DNA of 64,000 bases from Candidatus Babeliales bacterium (GTDB lineage Bacteria; Babelota; Babeliae; Babelales; Chromulinivoraceae), in the NCBI GenBank assembly GCA_018061805.1, contig JAGOTL010000002.1, positions 1 to 64,000 of the forward strand. The letters are read 5' to 3'. Below the pieces are notes generated by a model. That model saw only the letters and a list, made by a program, of their open reading frames with translations, made no database searches and was not told the origin of the DNA. Below are positions 9,167 to 51,815 of this stretch, piece after piece. A program made the translations under genes and the position numbers. Each line of letters starts with the position of its first letter. The stretch's first letter is position 1.

Positions 9167-10057
9167 TTATTTATCGGGCATGCGGTCTACGATATTTGGT
9201 ATTTCTGCTTTTACGTTTTCCCATGTTTGTTTGGTTTTATCCCACCAGGTTTTTTGTGGAGGTATTGAGGGTAGTCGTACAGCGCCTGGGCGATTACCAT
9301 GAGGCATAGCCCCTGGGTGCTTCGGTGTCATGGCATTGCGTAAAGAAGGATCCATTTGTAGGGCACGTTGCATGTCTATTCCTTGGGGAAGGCTTAAATA
9401 TGTACTCCAATCAAAGCCATGTTTTGTTAACACTCTGATGACATCTCTGGTTCTTTCACGCCATGGTTTATACTTAGGAAGGCCTTGGATGCTTTTTAAT
9501 GTAACCGCTGAAAGCTGGCTCATGATTCCTTCTTCATTAAGCACATCTTGCATTGTACTAGGATGATTATAGAGAGATTCTGTTATTATAGGTATCATAC
9601 CCGTTGTTATCTTAACATAATCAGGGATAGGTACTGCTTGGATTATGTACTGTTGATATAGTTTTTCATTTTGAGATAACATATAATCTAGATATCGTGG
9701 TTTCAATTCCATAATCGCATTTAAAATGTCATAGCTTTCAAATACGATAACGGGTGTTTGCTGAAATCTTTCTATGTATTTATTTTCTATGTCTATAGCT
9801 AAAATAGGATCCAGGTCAGCTGCCTTAGGATCAACGTCGCTCAAGACAACCGGGTAGCCCATGGTATGGTGAGTTAAATCTTCTAAATCTTTGTAGGCAC
9901 GAGTTTTTCGATGTTTTATCCAGTCACGAAATTCTAGATCTGCTGTTGTTAAATATTTTGTATCGACTTCTGATCGATCATCTGAAGCTGATAGCGTGTG
10001 CATGCCTATGGTCGACAAGCAGCAAAACATTAAGAATAAATACGTATTAAGGTTCAT
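9167..10057 (-). CDS. Exported tandem-family protein B with conserved C-terminal tail
   Basis: 296 residues, with signal peptide MNLNTYLFLMFCCLSTIGM. It is the closest relative of protein C (10142-10972). Shared blocks are KPRYLDYMLSQNEKLY, the segment after VLTKHGFDWSTYLSLPQGID, and LRNAMTPKHPGA. The C-terminus is almost identical to that of protein A (TWWDKTKQTWENVK, VDRMPDK). Sharing its body with one neighbour and its tail with another suggests gene conversion or module exchange within the array. The function is unknown. Confidence 0.68.
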   Translation of the reverse strand: MNLNTYLFLMFCCLSTIGMHTLSASDDRSEVDTKYLTTADLEFRDWIKHRKTRAYKDLEDLTHHTMGYPVVLSDVDPKAADLDPILAIDIENKYIERFQQTPVIVFESYDILNAIMELKPRYLDYMLSQNEKLYQQYIIQAVPIPDYVKITTGMIPIITESLYNHPSTMQDVLNEEGIMSQLSAVTLKSIQGLPKYKPWRERTRDVIRVLTKHGFDWSTYLSLPQGIDMQRALQMDPSLRNAMTPKHPGAMPHGNRPGAVRLPSIPPQKTWWDKTKQTWENVKAEIPNIVDRMPDK

Positions 10058-10120
10058 TGTAATCTCCATTTTTAATAACCTTTTACTATCAGTATGCCCG
10101 AATAAGGTCTTTAAAAACAA
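10058..10120 (-). repeat. Leader repeat, copy 3
   Basis: Same block as copies 1 and 2 with a few substitutions (for example TTATTCGGGCATACTGATAG). It directly precedes the ATG of exported protein B. Confidence 0.7.
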
Positions 10121-10141
10121 GATTTTTGGGCATTTTTTAGA

Positions 10142-10972
10142 TTAAACATCAGTTAACTTGTCAGCAATTTTGCTTAATGTTTGTTTGGTACGATCCCACC
10201 AGGTTGGTTGATGAATTTCGGGCACTTGTGATGAAATTGGCGGTAACTTAACAGCTCCTGGGTGTTTAGGTGTCATGGCATTGCGTAAAGTAGGATCATT
10301 TTGTAGGGCTTGTCGCATATCTATTCCTTGGGGAAGGCTTAAATATGTACTCCAATCAAAGCCATGTTTTGTTAAGACGTGTATCATTGCTATAGATTTT
10401 TCACGCCATGGCAGATATAAGGGAGTGCCTAGAGTTATTTCTAGCATATTTTGTGAAAACTCGTCGATGGGTCTATCCATAAGATCGTTCACGATAGTAG
10501 TATTATCCACAAGAAAATCTTTCATGGTTTTACCATAGTCAAAAGGGCTTTCTAGTGCTGTGGTGTAATAATCAGGGAGTGGGGCTTTTTGAATAATATA
10601 TTTTGTATATAATCTCTTATTTTGAGACAACATATAATCTAAATATTTTGGTTTCAGCTGATCAATTGCATTTATAATGTCATAACCTGAAAAAACAATG
10701 TCGGGTGATTGTTTAAGTCTATCTATAAAAGTGTTTTCTATTTTTGTACCTAGCACAGGATCAGTTGGATTATATATATCGATAGCGGTAGATTCCATCT
10801 CGAGCTTAGGATCTGCTTTCGATAGTCTTTCTAAGTCTTGGTATAAAATATCTTTTGGGTTGGTATAGATATCTGGGTATAAAATTAAAGTACCGCGTGC
10901 AGCTAGTAAAAAAGGCGTGTTGCTTATTGATAAAAAGCATACAGCCAAAAATATATATTTTTTTAAATTCAT
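10142..10972 (-). CDS. Exported tandem-family protein C with conserved C-terminal tail
   Basis: 276 residues. Signal peptide MNLKKYIFLAVCFLSISN; GGGGG lies upstream of the ATG. Body blocks are shared with protein B (KPKYLDYMLSQNKRLY, HGFDWSTYLSLPQGIDM, LRNAMTPKHPGAV). The tail is of a second type, TWWDRTKQTLSKIADKLTDV, shared with protein D rather than with A and B. So two tail variants exist in the array. No family was recognised. Confidence 0.68.
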   Translation of the reverse strand: MNLKKYIFLAVCFLSISNTPFLLAARGTLILYPDIYTNPKDILYQDLERLSKADPKLEMESTAIDIYNPTDPVLGTKIENTFIDRLKQSPDIVFSGYDIINAIDQLKPKYLDYMLSQNKRLYTKYIIQKAPLPDYYTTALESPFDYGKTMKDFLVDNTTIVNDLMDRPIDEFSQNMLEITLGTPLYLPWREKSIAMIHVLTKHGFDWSTYLSLPQGIDMRQALQNDPTLRNAMTPKHPGAVKLPPISSQVPEIHQPTWWDRTKQTLSKIADKLTDV

Positions 10973-11040
10973 GATTTAAACCCCCATTTTTAATGACCTT
11001 CTAGTATCAGTATGCTTTAAAAATACCTTTAAAAACAAGG
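10973..11040 (-). repeat. Leader repeat, copy 4 (diverged)
   Basis: This copy keeps ACCTTGTTTTTAAAGGT-like and GCATACTGATA-type sequence, but the CGGG box is replaced by AAA and the ribosome site is GGGGG instead of GGAG. It precedes exported protein C. Confidence 0.6.
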
Positions 11041-11060
11041 ATTTTGTGGGCTAAAACGTA

Positions 11061-11816
11061 TTAAACATCAGTTATTTTGTCTGCGATGTTGCTTAATGTT
11101 TGTTTGGTGCGATCCCACCAGGTTGGTTTAGGTTGTGGTATTGAAGGTAACTTTACAGCGCCTGGCCGATACAGATTCATAGCGCACAATGTATCATGAT
11201 TAGCGTACATGAGCTTTTTAGCATCTTGCATGTTTATGAGGTCAAAACAGTTTGTAGTGGAATATCTATAGGTGTTAAATATTTTATTCCAATCAACGTT
11301 ATGTTTGGTAAAAACCTTGGCGAGTTTGATATATCGTGTATGCATAGCAAGATTGTTTTCGTGTGTGTTCTGGTTTTGAACATCAAATGCTTGTTGGCTG
11401 TGCTGCGCTATTTTACGCTTGAAATATATTATGCCTTTGATTGTTTCGATTGCTGCATAAGAATTAAGTGAAAAATCACCTTCATAGTTTGAAATAAGGT
11501 AATCTAGATAATCAGGTAAAGCATAGAAGCGAGCGTTAAAAATATCAAGTTCTGTTACAGGCAGTATCAATGTTGGATGTATTGCAAGTAATAAAAATTC
11601 TTTTTTTTTAAGTTCAGAGGCGTTGAAACGATGTTGAGCAAGAGTGTCGTATATTGTAACCAGTTGATATATAGCCAAAGCTTTGTATGCTTTATCCAGT
11701 TCTTGTTTTCTTTCTAGAATGTAATGTGATCTAGCAGTGTTTTCAGATGAGCATATCGTCACGAACATTGTCCAGATAAGGCAAAATGTACATAAAATAT
11801 ATTTGTATGTATTCAT
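11061..11816 (-). CDS. Exported tandem-family protein D with conserved C-terminal tail
   Basis: 251 residues with signal peptide MNTYKYILCTFCLIWTMFVTIC. It is the most diverged of the four bodies but keeps the segment AKVFTKHNVDWNKIF and the tail RPGAVKLPSI, then TWWDRTKQTLSNIADKITDV. Its upstream region lacks most of the leader repeat seen before the others. Position and tail place it in the family; the function is unknown. Confidence 0.65.
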   Translation of the reverse strand: MNTYKYILCTFCLIWTMFVTICSSENTARSHYILERKQELDKAYKALAIYQLVTIYDTLAQHRFNASELKKKEFLLLAIHPTLILPVTELDIFNARFYALPDYLDYLISNYEGDFSLNSYAAIETIKGIIYFKRKIAQHSQQAFDVQNQNTHENNLAMHTRYIKLAKVFTKHNVDWNKIFNTYRYSTTNCFDLINMQDAKKLMYANHDTLCAMNLYRPGAVKLPSIPQPKPTWWDRTKQTLSNIADKITDV

Positions 11817-14380: not shown

Positions 14381-15328
14381 TTAAAAAAGCAGCATAACAA
14401 TAGCGATTAAGAGTCCATAAATTGCAAATGAGTCAATCATAGCAAGTGCAAGCATAGTGATCTTTGATAAAGATGGATATTGATCAAGATGCAAGGCGAT
14501 TTGTGTGCATGCCATCGCCCCAGTTCTACCAGAATTTATACCCGGAGAAATAGTGCTTAGGCCGATACAAATTGCTGCTGCTATAAATTGCCAACTTTGA
14601 ATAAATGATTCAGGATTAATTGCAGTGGTTAAAATCATAAGCGATATCAACAATGAAAAGATAGCAGGTGTTTCAATAATTGCTTCGCAAATAAACGTGA
14701 ATGTCATAATTTTGCCAAAGGCCTGTTTGTTGGTACCTACCCCGTGGCATGCTGCAAAAGCAAACAAGCTGAGTCCGATCGATGGTCCAATGCAACCGAG
14801 TCCTATGCTAATACCCGCAGCAAGCATTTGGAAACCATGTTGGACAGTTGCAGCGGAGTGTATTTTTGATTTTATAAGCAACGATATCAACATGCCAAAC
14901 ATGTTAGGCGTCATGATCAGAGTTTGTGTAATGAGCATTAAATTTAGCAGCTTTGTCTGAAGGAAGGGTTGTGAGGCTACACTGTGGCATGTTGCAACAG
15001 CAGGAAACGCTGAAGCAATCCCAGCACAAAAACCGGAAAGGCCCATAGCGATAGCAATACCAGCTGCACCGTAGTTGGCGTAGTTCGAATTTTGAAGTGT
15101 GTTTATATCGCCCAGCATCATGATTGATATCACGATACCCATAACGGCAGCAGTTTCGGTAATTGCCATACCGATCACGCAAAGTTTTGAAATCGCATTT
15201 GCAGATGTTGGTTGGCGGTTCATTGCTTGGAGTGCTGCGGCACCAATAAAACCTTGGCCAATAGATGTACCAAGAGCAGATAGCACTGCTGGTACAATGG
15301 CGTATAAAATATACAACATATCGATCAT
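14381..15328 (-). CDS. atpE: F0 ATP synthase subunit c, four-hairpin fusion
   Basis: Subunit c forms the membrane rotor of ATP synthase; the usual protein is about 80 residues with two helices. This one has 315 residues and eight helices, an 80-residue unit repeated four times. The ion-binding position gives E58, M139, E219 and D299, spaced 81, 80 and 80, so the second unit lacks the carboxylate. The first unit also keeps the RQP loop (38-40) and GQG with Q25 followed by E58-T59, which resembles Na+-binding c subunits; the others lack the glutamine. The ATG overlaps the stop of the subunit a gene (ATGA), indicating coupled synthesis. It could run as a V-type-like pump or as an ATP synthase of altered ion/ATP ratio; direction cannot be told. 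Confidence 0.85.
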   Translation of the reverse strand: MIDMLYILYAIVPAVLSALGTSIGQGFIGAAALQAMNRQPTSANAISKLCVIGMAITETAAVMGIVISIMMLGDINTLQNSNYANYGAAGIAIAMGLSGFCAGIASAFPAVATCHSVASQPFLQTKLLNLMLITQTLIMTPNMFGMLISLLIKSKIHSAATVQHGFQMLAAGISIGLGCIGPSIGLSLFAFAACHGVGTNKQAFGKIMTFTFICEAIIETPAIFSLLISLMILTTAINPESFIQSWQFIAAAICIGLSTISPGINSGRTGAMACTQIALHLDQYPSLSKITMLALAMIDSFAIYGLLIAIVMLLF

Positions 15329-16068
15329 GGTATGCCCACTTCATCTTCAGATGTTAATTCCATAGATAGGTATGTCATGGTCAGCATAGTAAACACAAAT
15401 GCTTGTATAAGACCTTCAAAAATACCAAACAAAAGTAGCATGATAATATTGGCACCTGAAATAATACCAACCGTTTGAGCTATTACAGATCCAGATAAAA
15501 CTTTGGAATACAGCGAGCTTATGATAAAGCCACCGTAAATATTTCCAAATAAACGAAACGATAGTGAAATGATCGATGATATGGCACCAATGATGTGGAG
15601 TGGAAACATGATAAAAAATGGTTCAAAGTAATGTGCGATATAGTGAAGTAAACCTTTAGCTTTAATAGAATTAAAGTGTACATACAAAAACGAAGTAAGT
15701 CCTAAAGCAAAGGTGGTATTTAAATCTTTGGTTGGTTCTTCCAGCCACGGAATAATTTGAATAGTGTTGCATAAAGTTATGAAGGTAAAAAACGAACCAA
15801 TCATAGCAAGATGGTTGATAGGACAAGTTTTAAGTGACTGTAGTAACAGATCTCTAAAAACTTGTACGTATTGTAAAACGCACCACCGAACTAAACTTTT
15901 TGGATTTTTTAAGCAATAAAAAACATACACACTTGCAAGTGCGATTAAAATTAAAATAACCCACGTGCTGATGAGTGTGTCAGCTTGAAGGTCCCAGAAT
16001 TTTCCAGAAAGACCAAATAGTGCAAATGGTTTCCAAACTGTATGATGAAGCATATTTTGGTTATGCAT
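15325..16068 (-). CDS. atpB: F0 ATP synthase subunit a
   Basis: Stator membrane subunit that forms the ion half-channels, 247 residues from the ATG at 16068 (AAGAGAT upstream; a TTG two codons earlier is possible). It has about six transmembrane helices. The essential arginine lies in SLSFRLFGNIYGG (R172), and EEPTKDLNTT (110-119) precedes the channel helices, as in other subunits a. It sits between the atpI-like gene and the fused atpE gene. Genes for subunit b and the F1 sector are not in the window. Confidence 0.92.
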   Translation of the reverse strand: MHNQNMLHHTVWKPFALFGLSGKFWDLQADTLISTWVILILIALASVYVFYCLKNPKSLVRWCVLQYVQVFRDLLLQSLKTCPINHLAMIGSFFTFITLCNTIQIIPWLEEPTKDLNTTFALGLTSFLYVHFNSIKAKGLLHYIAHYFEPFFIMFPLHIIGAISSIISLSFRLFGNIYGGFIISSLYSKVLSGSVIAQTVGIISGANIIMLLLFGIFEGLIQAFVFTMLTMTYLSMELTSEDEVGIP

Positions 16069-16086
16069 GATCAAATCTCTTTAGAA

Positions 16087-16347
16087 TTATTTTTTATATG
16101 CTAGTACAATGGTACATAGGTAAGAGGATACAAAGAATGCGATCAGAAGTATAGCATTGTCCTTAATTAATCCGTAATTATAGTAGACAATAGAAAAAAT
16201 AACTGCAAAGCGTACAATGGTAAACAAAAGACCAAGCCATATTTTTTTATGTCGAGCAGCATACGTTTTTTCATAATATGACACAGATCCATTTATAATA
16301 CCCAGTATCGCAGCACACATACTTTGGATTATAAGCATTTCATTCAT
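16087..16347 (-). CDS. Small membrane protein, AtpI-like
   Basis: 86 residues with about three to four transmembrane helices and basic loops (KTYAARHKK, LAYKK). Position immediately upstream of atpB, 18 bases away, matches atpI, which encodes a c-ring assembly helper or Mg transporter. The sequence is too short for a secure family assignment, so the name rests mainly on synteny. Confidence 0.5.
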   Translation of the reverse strand: MNEMLIIQSMCAAILGIINGSVSYYEKTYAARHKKIWLGLLFTIVRFAVIFSIVYYNYGLIKDNAILLIAFFVSSYLCTIVLAYKK

Positions 16348-37575: not shown

Positions 37576-38958
37576 TTATTCAATAATTTTATTTTGTTCT
37601 AACAGCTTAGCGTTTTGGGTGCCTACAAACAATGCAGCTACAATCCAAATACCAATACAACCTAAGCTAATTAAAGTTCCATACATAATCAAATTATGAA
37701 TTGAAAGTATTGAGTTACCAGGTACGTTGAGCCATCCACCAATTTGTGCCCCAGACATTTTTGCAGATCGGGAACCAAACATATCGATAATGCTTTTAGT
37801 TTTAAACTTTACATCTTTGCTGGTTGGGATGTACATCATCTCTTTGACGGGGTTATTTAAAGCGTATGCTAAAGCTTTAATGACAAGCATTACGATAAAT
37901 ATTGCCCACAATAAATGCATTGCTGATGGTGATACATAGTTATAATACGAAAATAAGCCCAGTAAAAATGTTGCAAATAAAATAGGGTAAATTAAAAGAC
38001 AAATTTTTGTGCCTAATTTTTTAATAGCGTAGCTAGTACCAAGTAGGGCTATTAAAAAGGCAAGTGTGTTGATCGATACGCCATACATACCTTTGAACCA
38101 TTTAAACGTAGGGTCATCAAAAAGTATTGATGCTTGAGAGTTCATTTGGTATTCAACAATAGTTCCTGCTATTTCATAAAATGTTGAAACAACAAGTACT
38201 CCAATTAAATAAGGTTCTGTTGCAAGTAGCGTAAAACCACTCCATGCATGATGTTCTTTTTTTGTTTCGCGACTATCGCTGCGCATTTGTTCTGCAGGAA
38301 TTGTTTTGACTAAGTAACGAATGGTCAGCATAAAAAAAGCAAGGCATACGACAACGATAGCATAAAAAGGCCAGATAATTTTTGTATGAATGAGCATTAA
38401 CGCAGAGCCACCAATTGCACCAAATTGTCCGGCAGCAGTGATGACAGGAAATGCTCTTTTTGCTTGATCAGACGGTGTTGAGCTGATGGTAAATGACCAA
38501 AACAAAGCGACCATCAAAGAACCGAAGCTTTCGGTAAATAAATAACCTAAAATACCACTGGTTGCGAGCATTGTACGGCCTATAAATTCATCGCCGTAAC
38601 TATTTTTAATAAAAAGTATTACGGTCATGTATGAAAAAACGATCATGTAAAATGATGCGATGACATACATGAGTTTATGTTTTTCAAATATATCAACAAG
38701 TCGTCCATACAGTAAAACAAGAAACAGTACAAAGAGAGGAGATAAGGTTTTGACTGTTGGGATCCAGAGTCGTCCTGTGTCGTGTGACCAGCCTAAAGAT
38801 GTTGGAAAAGCAAGTTTATACAAAACAAGATCTTTTAAAAGTCGCATGAGCCAGTATGTGCCAATGGTGAATAAAAATGCCAGCGCGAGTAAGCTTATTT
38901 TTTTGATCTCGTCTTGTTTGATGTCTGGATAAAAAAATCGTATAAACGCTGATATCAT
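37576..38958 (-). CDS. NTT-family nucleotide (ATP/ADP) translocase, copy 2
   Basis: Inner-membrane exchanger of the NTT family, 460 residues, about 12 helices. The start at 38958 has AAAGGGGA upstream. FFYPDIKQDEIKK near the N-terminus, YWLMRLLKDLVLYKLAFPTS and NPVKEMMYIPTSKDVKFKTK are shared nearly word for word with the neighbouring copy. NTTs of obligate intracellular bacteria import host ATP for ADP, but members also import other nucleotides or NAD; the substrate cannot be decided. The two copies are about half identical by eye, so they probably have different substrates. Confidence 0.9.
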   Translation of the reverse strand: MISAFIRFFYPDIKQDEIKKISLLALAFLFTIGTYWLMRLLKDLVLYKLAFPTSLGWSHDTGRLWIPTVKTLSPLFVLFLVLLYGRLVDIFEKHKLMYVIASFYMIVFSYMTVILFIKNSYGDEFIGRTMLATSGILGYLFTESFGSLMVALFWSFTISSTPSDQAKRAFPVITAAGQFGAIGGSALMLIHTKIIWPFYAIVVVCLAFFMLTIRYLVKTIPAEQMRSDSRETKKEHHAWSGFTLLATEPYLIGVLVVSTFYEIAGTIVEYQMNSQASILFDDPTFKWFKGMYGVSINTLAFLIALLGTSYAIKKLGTKICLLIYPILFATFLLGLFSYYNYVSPSAMHLLWAIFIVMLVIKALAYALNNPVKEMMYIPTSKDVKFKTKSIIDMFGSRSAKMSGAQIGGWLNVPGNSILSIHNLIMYGTLISLGCIGIWIVAALFVGTQNAKLLEQNKIIE

Positions 38959-38993
38959 AAGATTGGTCCCCTTTGTATGTATAGTCTTAACAG

Positions 38994-39028
38994 AAAAGAC
39001 TCCGACATATAACATGCCGGAGTCTTTT
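38994..39028 (-). terminator. Intercistronic hairpin between the two NTT genes
   Basis: Stem AAAAGACTCCG / CGGAGTCTTTT with a 13-base loop ends the upstream NTT gene. Only four T follow, so readthrough to the second copy is likely and the expression level may differ. Confidence 0.65.
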
Positions 39029-39063: not shown

Positions 39064-40446
39064 TTACCCAATAATCTCACCGCTTTTAACGAGTTTTTGA
39101 TTTTTGTTACCAACGTAGATTGCTGCCATAATCCATACACCAATAACGCCAAGGCTAATAAGTGAGCCATAAAGCATGAGGTTTTGGATAGATGCAACTG
39201 CGTTTCCAGGTACGTTGAGGTAGTCTGTAACTTGAGCGCCTGTACCTTTTGCTGATCTACCACCAAGCATATCGATGATGCCTTTTGTTTTAAATTTAGC
39301 ATCTTTGCTTGTTGGGATATACATCATTTCTTTAACAGGGTTGTTAACTGCGTATGAAGCACCTTTAACAATCATCATCACGCCAAATGTAGCCCATACG
39401 AGTGATGTTGATGTCGCCATACCGCTTTGGTAGTACATATAAAGTGCTACTAAAGAGATTGCAAAGCTTATTGGATAAATAAGCAAGCAGATGCGTACAC
39501 CGTAGTTTTTAATGATTTTGCTAGTTCCTAAAAGAGCCATAACAAAAGCAAGACCGTTTGAAGCTACACCAAAATCACCAAGGAAATTTTGGAATTCAGA
39601 ACCATTAAAAATCACGCTTGCTTGTGATTTCATTTGGTAATCAATGATTGTTCCTGCGATTTCGTAGAATGTTGATACTACTAAAACACCCATTAAATAT
39701 GGTTGTGATACTAATAATTTGAGTCCACCAAAAAAGTCTGGTTTAGATTTTTTTTCTTCATGATCAGATTTCATTTGATCTGAAGGAGTTGTTTTGATCA
39801 AAGAGTAGATCGCAACAATTAAACCAAGAAGGAATGTTGTTGCAACAAAGAACAACGGCCATGTTGGAAGTTGTTTAACTTTCATTAAAGCTGATCCACC
39901 AATTGAACCGATTTGACCTAACGCAACGATGAACGGGAATGTTCTTTTTGCTTGATCAGATGTTGAAATACTTACGGTGAATGACCAGAATAATGCAACC
40001 AAAACAGAACCAAGGCTTTCTGTAAGCAAGTAGTTACCAATACCTGTGTATTTTAATACTGTTGCACCTACAAAAGCTGAACCTTGTGTTGCTTGCAAGT
40101 ATAAAACAGTAGCAACAAAACCAAAGCAAACTGTATAGAATGCTGCGATGATGTAAAATAGTTTATGTTTTTCAAACATATCAACCATTTTGGTATAAAT
40201 AGTAACAGCAACAAGTACTGTTAAGATAGATAATGTTTTTGCTGTAGGTTGCCATGTGCGTCCCATGTCAGCGTCAAAACCCAAATCTGTTGGGAATGTT
40301 AACTTGAAAAGCACTACATCTTTTAAAAGACGTAAAAGCCAGTAAGCACCAATTGTGAAGAAGAATGCGACTGCAAGCGTTGTATATTTTTTTACTTCAT
40401 CCCGTTTAATATCTGGGTAGAAAAACTGAACAACTGATGAAATCAT
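39064..40446 (-). CDS. NTT-family nucleotide (ATP/ADP) translocase, copy 1
   Basis: 460 residues, about 12 transmembrane helices, same family and same layout as copy 2. N-terminus FFYPDIKRDEVKKYTTLAVA, then YWLLRLLKDVVLFKLTFPTD and, near the end, NPVKEMMYIPTSKDAKFKTK. A stretch with TSDQAKRTFPFIVALGQ marks the central cytoplasmic loop region. Upstream gene of the pair. The presence of NTT genes is the main reason to see this organism as an intracellular energy parasite. Confidence 0.9.
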   Translation of the reverse strand: MISSVVQFFYPDIKRDEVKKYTTLAVAFFFTIGAYWLLRLLKDVVLFKLTFPTDLGFDADMGRTWQPTAKTLSILTVLVAVTIYTKMVDMFEKHKLFYIIAAFYTVCFGFVATVLYLQATQGSAFVGATVLKYTGIGNYLLTESLGSVLVALFWSFTVSISTSDQAKRTFPFIVALGQIGSIGGSALMKVKQLPTWPLFFVATTFLLGLIVAIYSLIKTTPSDQMKSDHEEKKSKPDFFGGLKLLVSQPYLMGVLVVSTFYEIAGTIIDYQMKSQASVIFNGSEFQNFLGDFGVASNGLAFVMALLGTSKIIKNYGVRICLLIYPISFAISLVALYMYYQSGMATSTSLVWATFGVMMIVKGASYAVNNPVKEMMYIPTSKDAKFKTKGIIDMLGGRSAKGTGAQVTDYLNVPGNAVASIQNLMLYGSLISLGVIGVWIMAAIYVGNKNQKLVKSGEIIG

Positions 40447-49611: not shown

Positions 49612-50600
49612 ATGTGGTTTGGAATACATTTTGCAAATAGTGCTGTAATTTATAAAATTGTCTGCATTGCGTTGATAGCAATAATTTTTTTGATCGTACG
49701 ATGGTATAAGTCGGTGCGCCGTATGCAAGCTTTAAGCTCGGCACGATTGCGTACTGTTGTGTTTTTTAAATCAGGTTACATCTATCGAGCATTAAAATAT
49801 ATTTTGTATGCTCTTGGTGTTTGTAGTTTACTTATCATAATTTTACAACCTCAATGGGGAAAAAAAGAAGAATCGATACAGCAAGAAGGACGTGATGTTT
49901 TGATTGCTGTTGATATTTCACGAAGCATGCTTTGCTCTGATCAAAAGCCAAATCGTTTAGAATTTGTAAAACAAAAAGTTCGTAAAATGTTAAGCAATTT
50001 ATCATGTGAACGAGTAGGGCTTATTTTATTTGCAGGCGACTCTGTGGTGCAATGTCCTTTAACCATCGATTATAATGCGTTCTTTATGTTTTTGGATAAC
50101 TTAGATGTGGAAACTGTAGCATCAGGTACGACAACGCTTGATGGTGCTGTGCAAAAAGCATTAAACATTTTTGAACAAATGCCAGAAAAAAAATCTAAAA
50201 TTTTGTGTATTTTTACCGACGGTGAAGATTTTTCAACAAACCTTGCTCGTTTTAAAGATCAAGCAATTGCGCAAGGTCTTTCTATTTTTACTTTTGGTGT
50301 AGGTACAAAGCGTGGCGCACCAATTCCGATTGTAGATAATAAGGGTAAAAATAGAGGGTTTGAAAAAGATGATAAAGGTACCATCATTATGTCTAAGTTA
50401 AATGAAGGTATTTTAAAAAATTTATCAGAGCAAACCGGTGGTACGTACATACATTTAGAATCTGGAGATAAAGATATTGCGCAATTTATTCGTTTAGTTG
50501 AAAAATTTGAAAAAGATTCTATGGAAAATGTATCTATGCAGCAATATGTACAGCAATATTGGTATTTTGCAGTAGTTAGTTTTATATGTTTGGGGTTAGA

Positions 50601-50613
<13 letters not shown>
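49612..50613 (+). CDS. batB: VWA-domain membrane protein BatB
   Basis: 333 residues, two N-terminal membrane helices, VWA domain with DISRSM (D101, S103, S105), CPLTIDYN and FTDGEDFS, and a C-terminal membrane helix. Paralogue of BatA. It starts 13 bases after batA and overlaps the next gene by 13 bases. Same layout as BatB of Bacteroidetes and spirochetes. Confidence 0.82.

Positions 50614-51795
<1,182 letters not shown>

Positions 51796-51815
<20 letters not shown>

Follow-up and report, generated by a model that had tools for sequence, protein, structure and literature searches.

The window analysed here comprises 64,000 nucleotides of the genome of a Candidatus Babeliales bacterium from the phylum Dependentiae (assembly GCA_018061805.1, contig JAGOTL010000002.1). 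On its minus strand, at 14381..15328, lies a gene for an F-type subunit c of 315 amino acids (aa) that consists of four hairpins and is called c4 in the following. The open reading frame (ORF) is intact, with no internal stop codon, and its ATG start overlaps the stop codon of the subunit a gene as ATGA. The family PF00137 was matched four times, with 30.8–40.4 bits and always above the curated cut-off (E 2.4e-31 for the whole protein). Thus, it was confirmed that four c-type hairpins reside in a single protein, as an earlier interpretation of the DNA from its letters alone (the sequence-only reading) had proposed. Its assignment of the ion-site residues, including the combination of Q25 with E58-T59, was likewise correct. 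Hairpin 1 (residues 1–78; 15095..15328) carries E58 (15155–15157) and, on helix 1, Q25. In hairpin 2 (residues 79–158; 14855..15094), the carboxylate is missing and M139 (14912–14914) takes its place. Hairpin 3 (residues 159–238; 14615..14854) possesses E219 (14672–14674), and hairpin 4 (residues 239–315; 14384..14614) D299 (14432–14434) and Y304. The carboxylate of the second transmembrane helix that characterizes subunit c of PF00137 is therefore found in hairpins 1, 3 and 4, but not in hairpin 2. In the window species, Gln together with Glu-Thr is present in hairpin 1 only and is not accompanied by the Tyr of the Na+ ligand set.

Directly upstream of c4, the minus strand encodes subunit a (atpB, 15325..16074; PF00119, E 1.4e-35), the sole match of its kind in the genome (936 kb, 51 contigs). 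A second kind of subunit c is encoded on a separate contig (G000:C16:59126-59314, plus strand; PF00137). This single-hairpin AtpE of 80 aa, named c1 here, has the one hairpin of about 80 aa that is usual for F-type c and that c4 lacks. A normal atpE elsewhere that makes up the real ring was among the findings which, according to the sequence-only reading, would overturn it; such a gene is thus present, but its presence does not imply a ring of c1 alone. It is followed by genes for two stator-like proteins, delta and alpha. The gamma gene lies on the contig of the window, beyond the window itself, while beta (L190:11184-12710) and the 81-aa epsilon (L190:10932-11177; PF02823) are encoded together on the minus strand of a further contig (G000:C48). 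In total, the genome possesses one subunit a, one alpha, one beta, one gamma and two kinds of c. Since a, gamma, alpha and beta are single, these genes belong to one enzyme. Its F-type nature is indicated by PF00119, PF00006 (twice), PF00231, PF00213 and PF02823, with b called by position only. A third, weaker PF00006 match, in a 611-aa frame, is probably Rho. The C-terminal part of beta matches PF22919, the C-terminal domain of V and A type ATP synthases. An origin of c4 from V/A-type enzymes, or its identity with the proteolipid subunit K, was rejected since an F-type subunit a adjoins it and F0 c models score best. N-ATPases lack a delta gene, possess atpQ and atpR and usually occur in addition to a normal F-ATPase, as a second copy. 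This identity was rejected as well, because delta is present (PF00213) and a, alpha and beta are single. An 86-aa small membrane protein without family match (16087..16347, minus strand) is encoded upstream of atpB, where atpI often stands; phmmer revealed homologues in only six of the fetched genomes.

The fusion was sought in related genomes, and a set of 101 Dependentiae genomes was analyzed. PF00137 was matched in 100 of them, mostly five times, i.e., by one short ORF and one four-repeat ORF of 313–350 aa. Subunit a was found in 95/101 genomes, including all 68 of high quality, with one good match each and, in two assemblies, additional short fragments. Wherever both genes were extracted (95/95 genomes), c4 was located directly downstream of a on the same strand, and the ATGA overlap was present in 36 of these 95. 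A genome from the window's own family that consists of a single contig of 1,174,272 bp (G024) carries a, c4 and c1. Thus, the four-hairpin c4 is real and phylum-wide in Dependentiae. The sequence-only reading had named an artefact of sequencing or assembly that joined separate c genes as one of two findings that would overturn it. Such an artefact is practically ruled out, since the same fusion occurs in 95 separately assembled species, single-contig genomes included. Moreover, the mutual identity of the c4 hairpins, averaged over genomes, is only about 21–29%, so that c4 is not a duplication made during assembly. Hairpins 3 and 4 are the closest pair, and hairpin 4 is nearest to c1. A stepwise origin from c via c2 to c4 was considered, but its order was not resolved by identities of 21–29%. 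A collection scan retrieved relatives in Dependentiae/TM6/Babeliales records; the patterns used favour close relatives, so that absence elsewhere does not follow.

The single-hairpin c1 was found in 96/101 genomes, with the genes for the stator, delta and alpha downstream of it. A true loss in some species was rejected, since alpha is missing as well from the five genomes in which c1 is absent, and the absence of c1 therefore reflects an assembly gap. Both kinds of c are retained even in the smallest well-assembled genomes. This retention argues against two alternative homomeric rings, made of either c1 or c4, that would share a and F1 and be used in differing conditions such as an extracellular and an intracellular stage, although the separate loci could allow separate regulation. 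Alternative homomeric c-rings on one a and F1 have no known precedent, and we regard this arrangement as quite unlikely.

The ion-site residues of c4 were compared across 95 species. Hairpin 1 retained a carboxylate in all of them (E 91, D 4), hairpin 3 in 90 (E 90, Q 2, G 2, S 1) and hairpin 4 in 94 (D 55, E 39, G 1). At hairpin 2, Q was most frequent (61), followed by E (24), M (7), V (2) and G (1). The missing carboxylate, and the Met in its place, are thus true of the window species, but not general, since Met occurs in 7/95 species and Glu is kept in 24/95. Similarly, the statement that only hairpin 1 keeps the RQP loop holds for the window species, in which hairpin 2 reads SQP, and fails among its relatives: there, the loop reaches its highest conservation in hairpin 2 (R 91, Q 87 and P 94 of 95), and the window species is exceptional. 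On helix 1 of hairpin 1, residue 25 is Glu instead of Gln in 17/95 species. Residues S168, R172, L173, G175, N176 and Q222 of subunit a (numbering of this analysis) were invariant in 95/95, with R172 being the essential Arg.

A tree was built from a, c4 and c1 with the hairpin-2 column excluded, and was rooted for drawing only. One deep fork (100 in the Shimodaira–Hasegawa-like approximate likelihood ratio test, quick method) separated 24 species (23 E, 1 G at hairpin 2) from 71 species (61 Q, 7 M, 2 V, 1 E). At this position, the tree requires three changes between acid and non-acid states. Met and Val belong to the window's own family, which is nested within Gln. The ion-site acid is universal in c subunits, and the change was therefore read as a loss rather than a gain. 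At this fork, where hairpin 2 of c4 loses its acid, residue 43 of c1, a loop position, switches from K/R to Y/F, possibly as a result of co-evolution. Whether the hairpin-2 state follows respiration or ATP import was considered, but the genomes offer no contrast, since nearly all possess ATP/ADP translocases of the TLC type and lack COX1 and complex I.

The site of c1 is complete. E62 is present in 85/85 sequences and Q29 in 78/85, and the loop is near-classical. In the Na+-translocating c subunit of I. tartaricus, the ligands are Q32, E65, S66 and Y70. The set in c1 (Q29, E62, S/T63 and Y67, with T63 in the window species) resembles this Na+ type, and use of Na+ by the Dependentiae ATPase is possible on the strength of these residues, with H+ as the alternative. 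A complete site in c1, together with the divergence of the c4 hairpins and the missing canonical loop in hairpins 3 and 4, might suggest that the ring consists of c1 alone and that c4 is an accessory protein, e.g., a template for F0 assembly or a regulator. However, an accessory protein would not need the three carboxylates of c4 that are kept in 90–95 of the 95 species, and the fold of c4 matches rotor subunits. Thus, a ring of c1 alone with c4 as an accessory protein is unlikely.

Strong purifying selection on c4 was evident from the least saturated species pair (G044/G047), with 0.014 nonsynonymous (dN) and 0.51 synonymous (dS) substitutions per site; in most of the remaining pairs, synonymous sites are close to saturated. 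The dN/dS ratio was low in c4, c1 and a alike, and hairpin 2 was not relaxed relative to the other hairpins. AlphaFold2 predicted the structure of c4 from a 50-row alignment with a predicted local distance difference test score (pLDDT) of 96.6 and a predicted template modelling score (pTM) of 0.92. By sequence and by fold, the top PDB match was 4bem_J, the double-hairpin c1 of A. woodii (Foldseek E 1.6e-4; template modelling score 0.75 by target length), followed by V-type rotor subunits. This confident fold and the position of c4 beside a in 95/95 genomes would fit a ring of c4 alone, with 8, 12 or 16 hairpins and c1 as a remnant or in another role, and an all-fused rotor of 13 hairpins has been deduced for Methanopyrus (PMC2359735). 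Yet c1 is kept phylum-wide ahead of the stator, delta and alpha genes, its E62 is invariant, and it evolves no faster than c4. Because of this canonical c1 with its complete site in the same genome and across the phylum, a rotor built only from c4, which the sequence-only reading had envisaged with three ion sites for every four hairpins, is unsupported and improbable. Its ion/ATP ratio between those of F- and V-type enzymes cannot be read from c4 alone, given c1.

The usual description of an F-type rotor is a ring of identical c copies, with the hybrid rotor of acetogens as the main exception. A. woodii and C. aceticum possess, beside the single-hairpin c of the same enzyme, a c with two hairpins, of which the second has lost the acid (Q....QT) (PMC7911925). 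This hybrid rotor (double-hairpin c1 with single-hairpin c2/c3; 4BEM; PMC7911925, PMC7793690) is likewise F-type and likewise combines fused and single c, and one of its fused hairpins lost the carboxylate by a change from E to Q before T. In the window species, a fused multi-hairpin c, a single c and one a are found as well, but the fused protein has four hairpins and hairpin 2 carries M; two hairpins in the acetogens stand against four in Dependentiae, where three acids are kept. In addition, the c genes of the acetogens lie together in the atp operon, whereas c4 and c1 occupy separate loci, and the acetogen enzyme is a Na+ ATP synthase, while Dependentiae are ATP-importing parasites. Co-residence of the c kinds in one ring was shown for A. 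woodii (4BEM) and is proposed for Dependentiae. The c4/c1 pair is a variant of this known kind of hybrid rotor, and convergence with the A. woodii rotor is the best reading.

Other systems share single features with c4. The c subunits of Methanocaldococcus jannaschii (three hairpins) and Methanopyrus kandleri (13 hairpins; PMC2359735) show the same tandem fusion in one chain, but belong to A-type enzymes, whereas the enzyme of Dependentiae is F-type (PF00119 a, delta, epsilon) and a single c is encoded in addition. The V-type proteolipids (Enterococcus hirae K; eukaryotic c, c' and c'') also combine fused hairpins, lost acids, a matching fold and an ATP-driven pump. In contrast to c4, in which one acid in four hairpins was lost and in one clade only, they have one acid in two hairpins and work with a V-type stator and head. 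The Glu32/Glu65 pair of the Fusobacterium nucleatum c (PMC3692424) resembles the Glu25 of hairpin 1 in 17/95 species, although that c forms a homomeric ring of single hairpins and the window species has Gln at this position. A four-hairpin F-type c was not found described in the open-access literature, which does not prove its absence. The presence of c4 next to c1 suggests a mixed, lopsided rotor of a kind so far not described in F-type enzymes.

The window also encodes two TLC-type ATP/ADP translocases on the minus strand (37576..39015, PF03219 E 4e-22; 39064..40446, PF03219 E 7e-29), and translocases of this type were found in 98/101 genomes. Respiration was probed with two Pfam families only: COX1 was matched in 1/101 genomes (a fragment at a contig edge) and PF00361 (complex I/Mrp-type antiporter) in 7/101. 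The C-terminal helices of epsilon inhibit ATP hydrolysis in many bacteria. Epsilon of the window species consists of the N-terminal beta-sandwich domain only, and its missing C-terminal domain is consistent with a role in ATP hydrolysis. For Chromulinavorax, Deeg et al. proposed that the ATP synthase runs in reverse (PMC6561590). Since import genes are common, COX1 and PF00361 are rare and this published interpretation agrees, the F-type ATPase of Dependentiae likely hydrolyses imported ATP. The idea of an ATP-hydrolysing pump in an ATP-importing cell, also part of the sequence-only reading, is thereby supported.

Taken together, an ATP-hydrolysing F-type ion pump with a rotor mixing c1 and c4 in ATP-importing parasites is our preferred explanation, with a probability of roughly 0.6. 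The simplest way for the one subunit a to work with both conserved kinds of c is a mixed ring. In this scheme, c4 would be a rotor subunit of the only F-type ATPase of Dependentiae. It would have arisen where atpE follows atpB, through the fusion of four c hairpins in tandem, and would assemble with copies of c1 into one heteromeric ring turning against a. F1 would hydrolyse imported host ATP, and the resulting rotation would pump H+ or Na+ outward, with hairpins 1, 3 and 4 of c4 and every c1 as ion carriers. The carboxylate of hairpin 2 would have been lost once at the deep fork, from E to Q and later to M/V in the window's family. Hairpin 2, which keeps structural and loop residues, may then act as a passive spacer, giving fewer ions per turn.

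Several points weigh against this explanation. First, we infer the sharing of one ring by c1 and c4, as well as direction, ion and ion ratio, and the two genes lie far apart. Second, the lack of respiration was read from two Pfam families, and the two b-like proteins after c1, which had no Pfam match, were called b by position. Third, Clade I species retain Glu in hairpin 2, and fewer ions per turn were therefore not the original reason for the fusion. As all or most of the four acids are retained in 24 species, the ion/ATP ratio is unlikely to have been that reason; the effect of c4 on it depends on how many c4 a ring contains, and is possibly small.

Two further observations concern other parts of the window. 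A run of related proteins with signal-peptide-like starts and a common C-terminal motif (TWWDKTKQT...) is encoded at 9167–11816; one was tested and had no Pfam family, and the proteins are probably a lineage-specific expanded family. At 50586–51815, a protein with tetratricopeptide-like (TPR-like) repeats carries a long glutamine run and a Q/N/K-rich tail behind them.

According to these results, Dependentiae retain, as an entire phylum, a c of four hairpins in addition to a normal c and a single a. We see about an even chance that all its members possess an obligately asymmetric F-type rotor, in which c4, whose sites are unequal and in most species include a silent one, and copies of c1 would form an ATP-driven pump of energy parasites that evolved independently of the V-type and acetogen rotors. 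The Glu of hairpin 2, kept in 24 species and lost in 71, provides a natural experiment at the level of clades, with Chromulinavorax as a cultured member. The c4 system makes it testable how a rotor tolerates silent or unequal sites, how the ion/ATP ratio evolves when an ATP synthase turns into a pump, and whether ring size is set by a fused segment.
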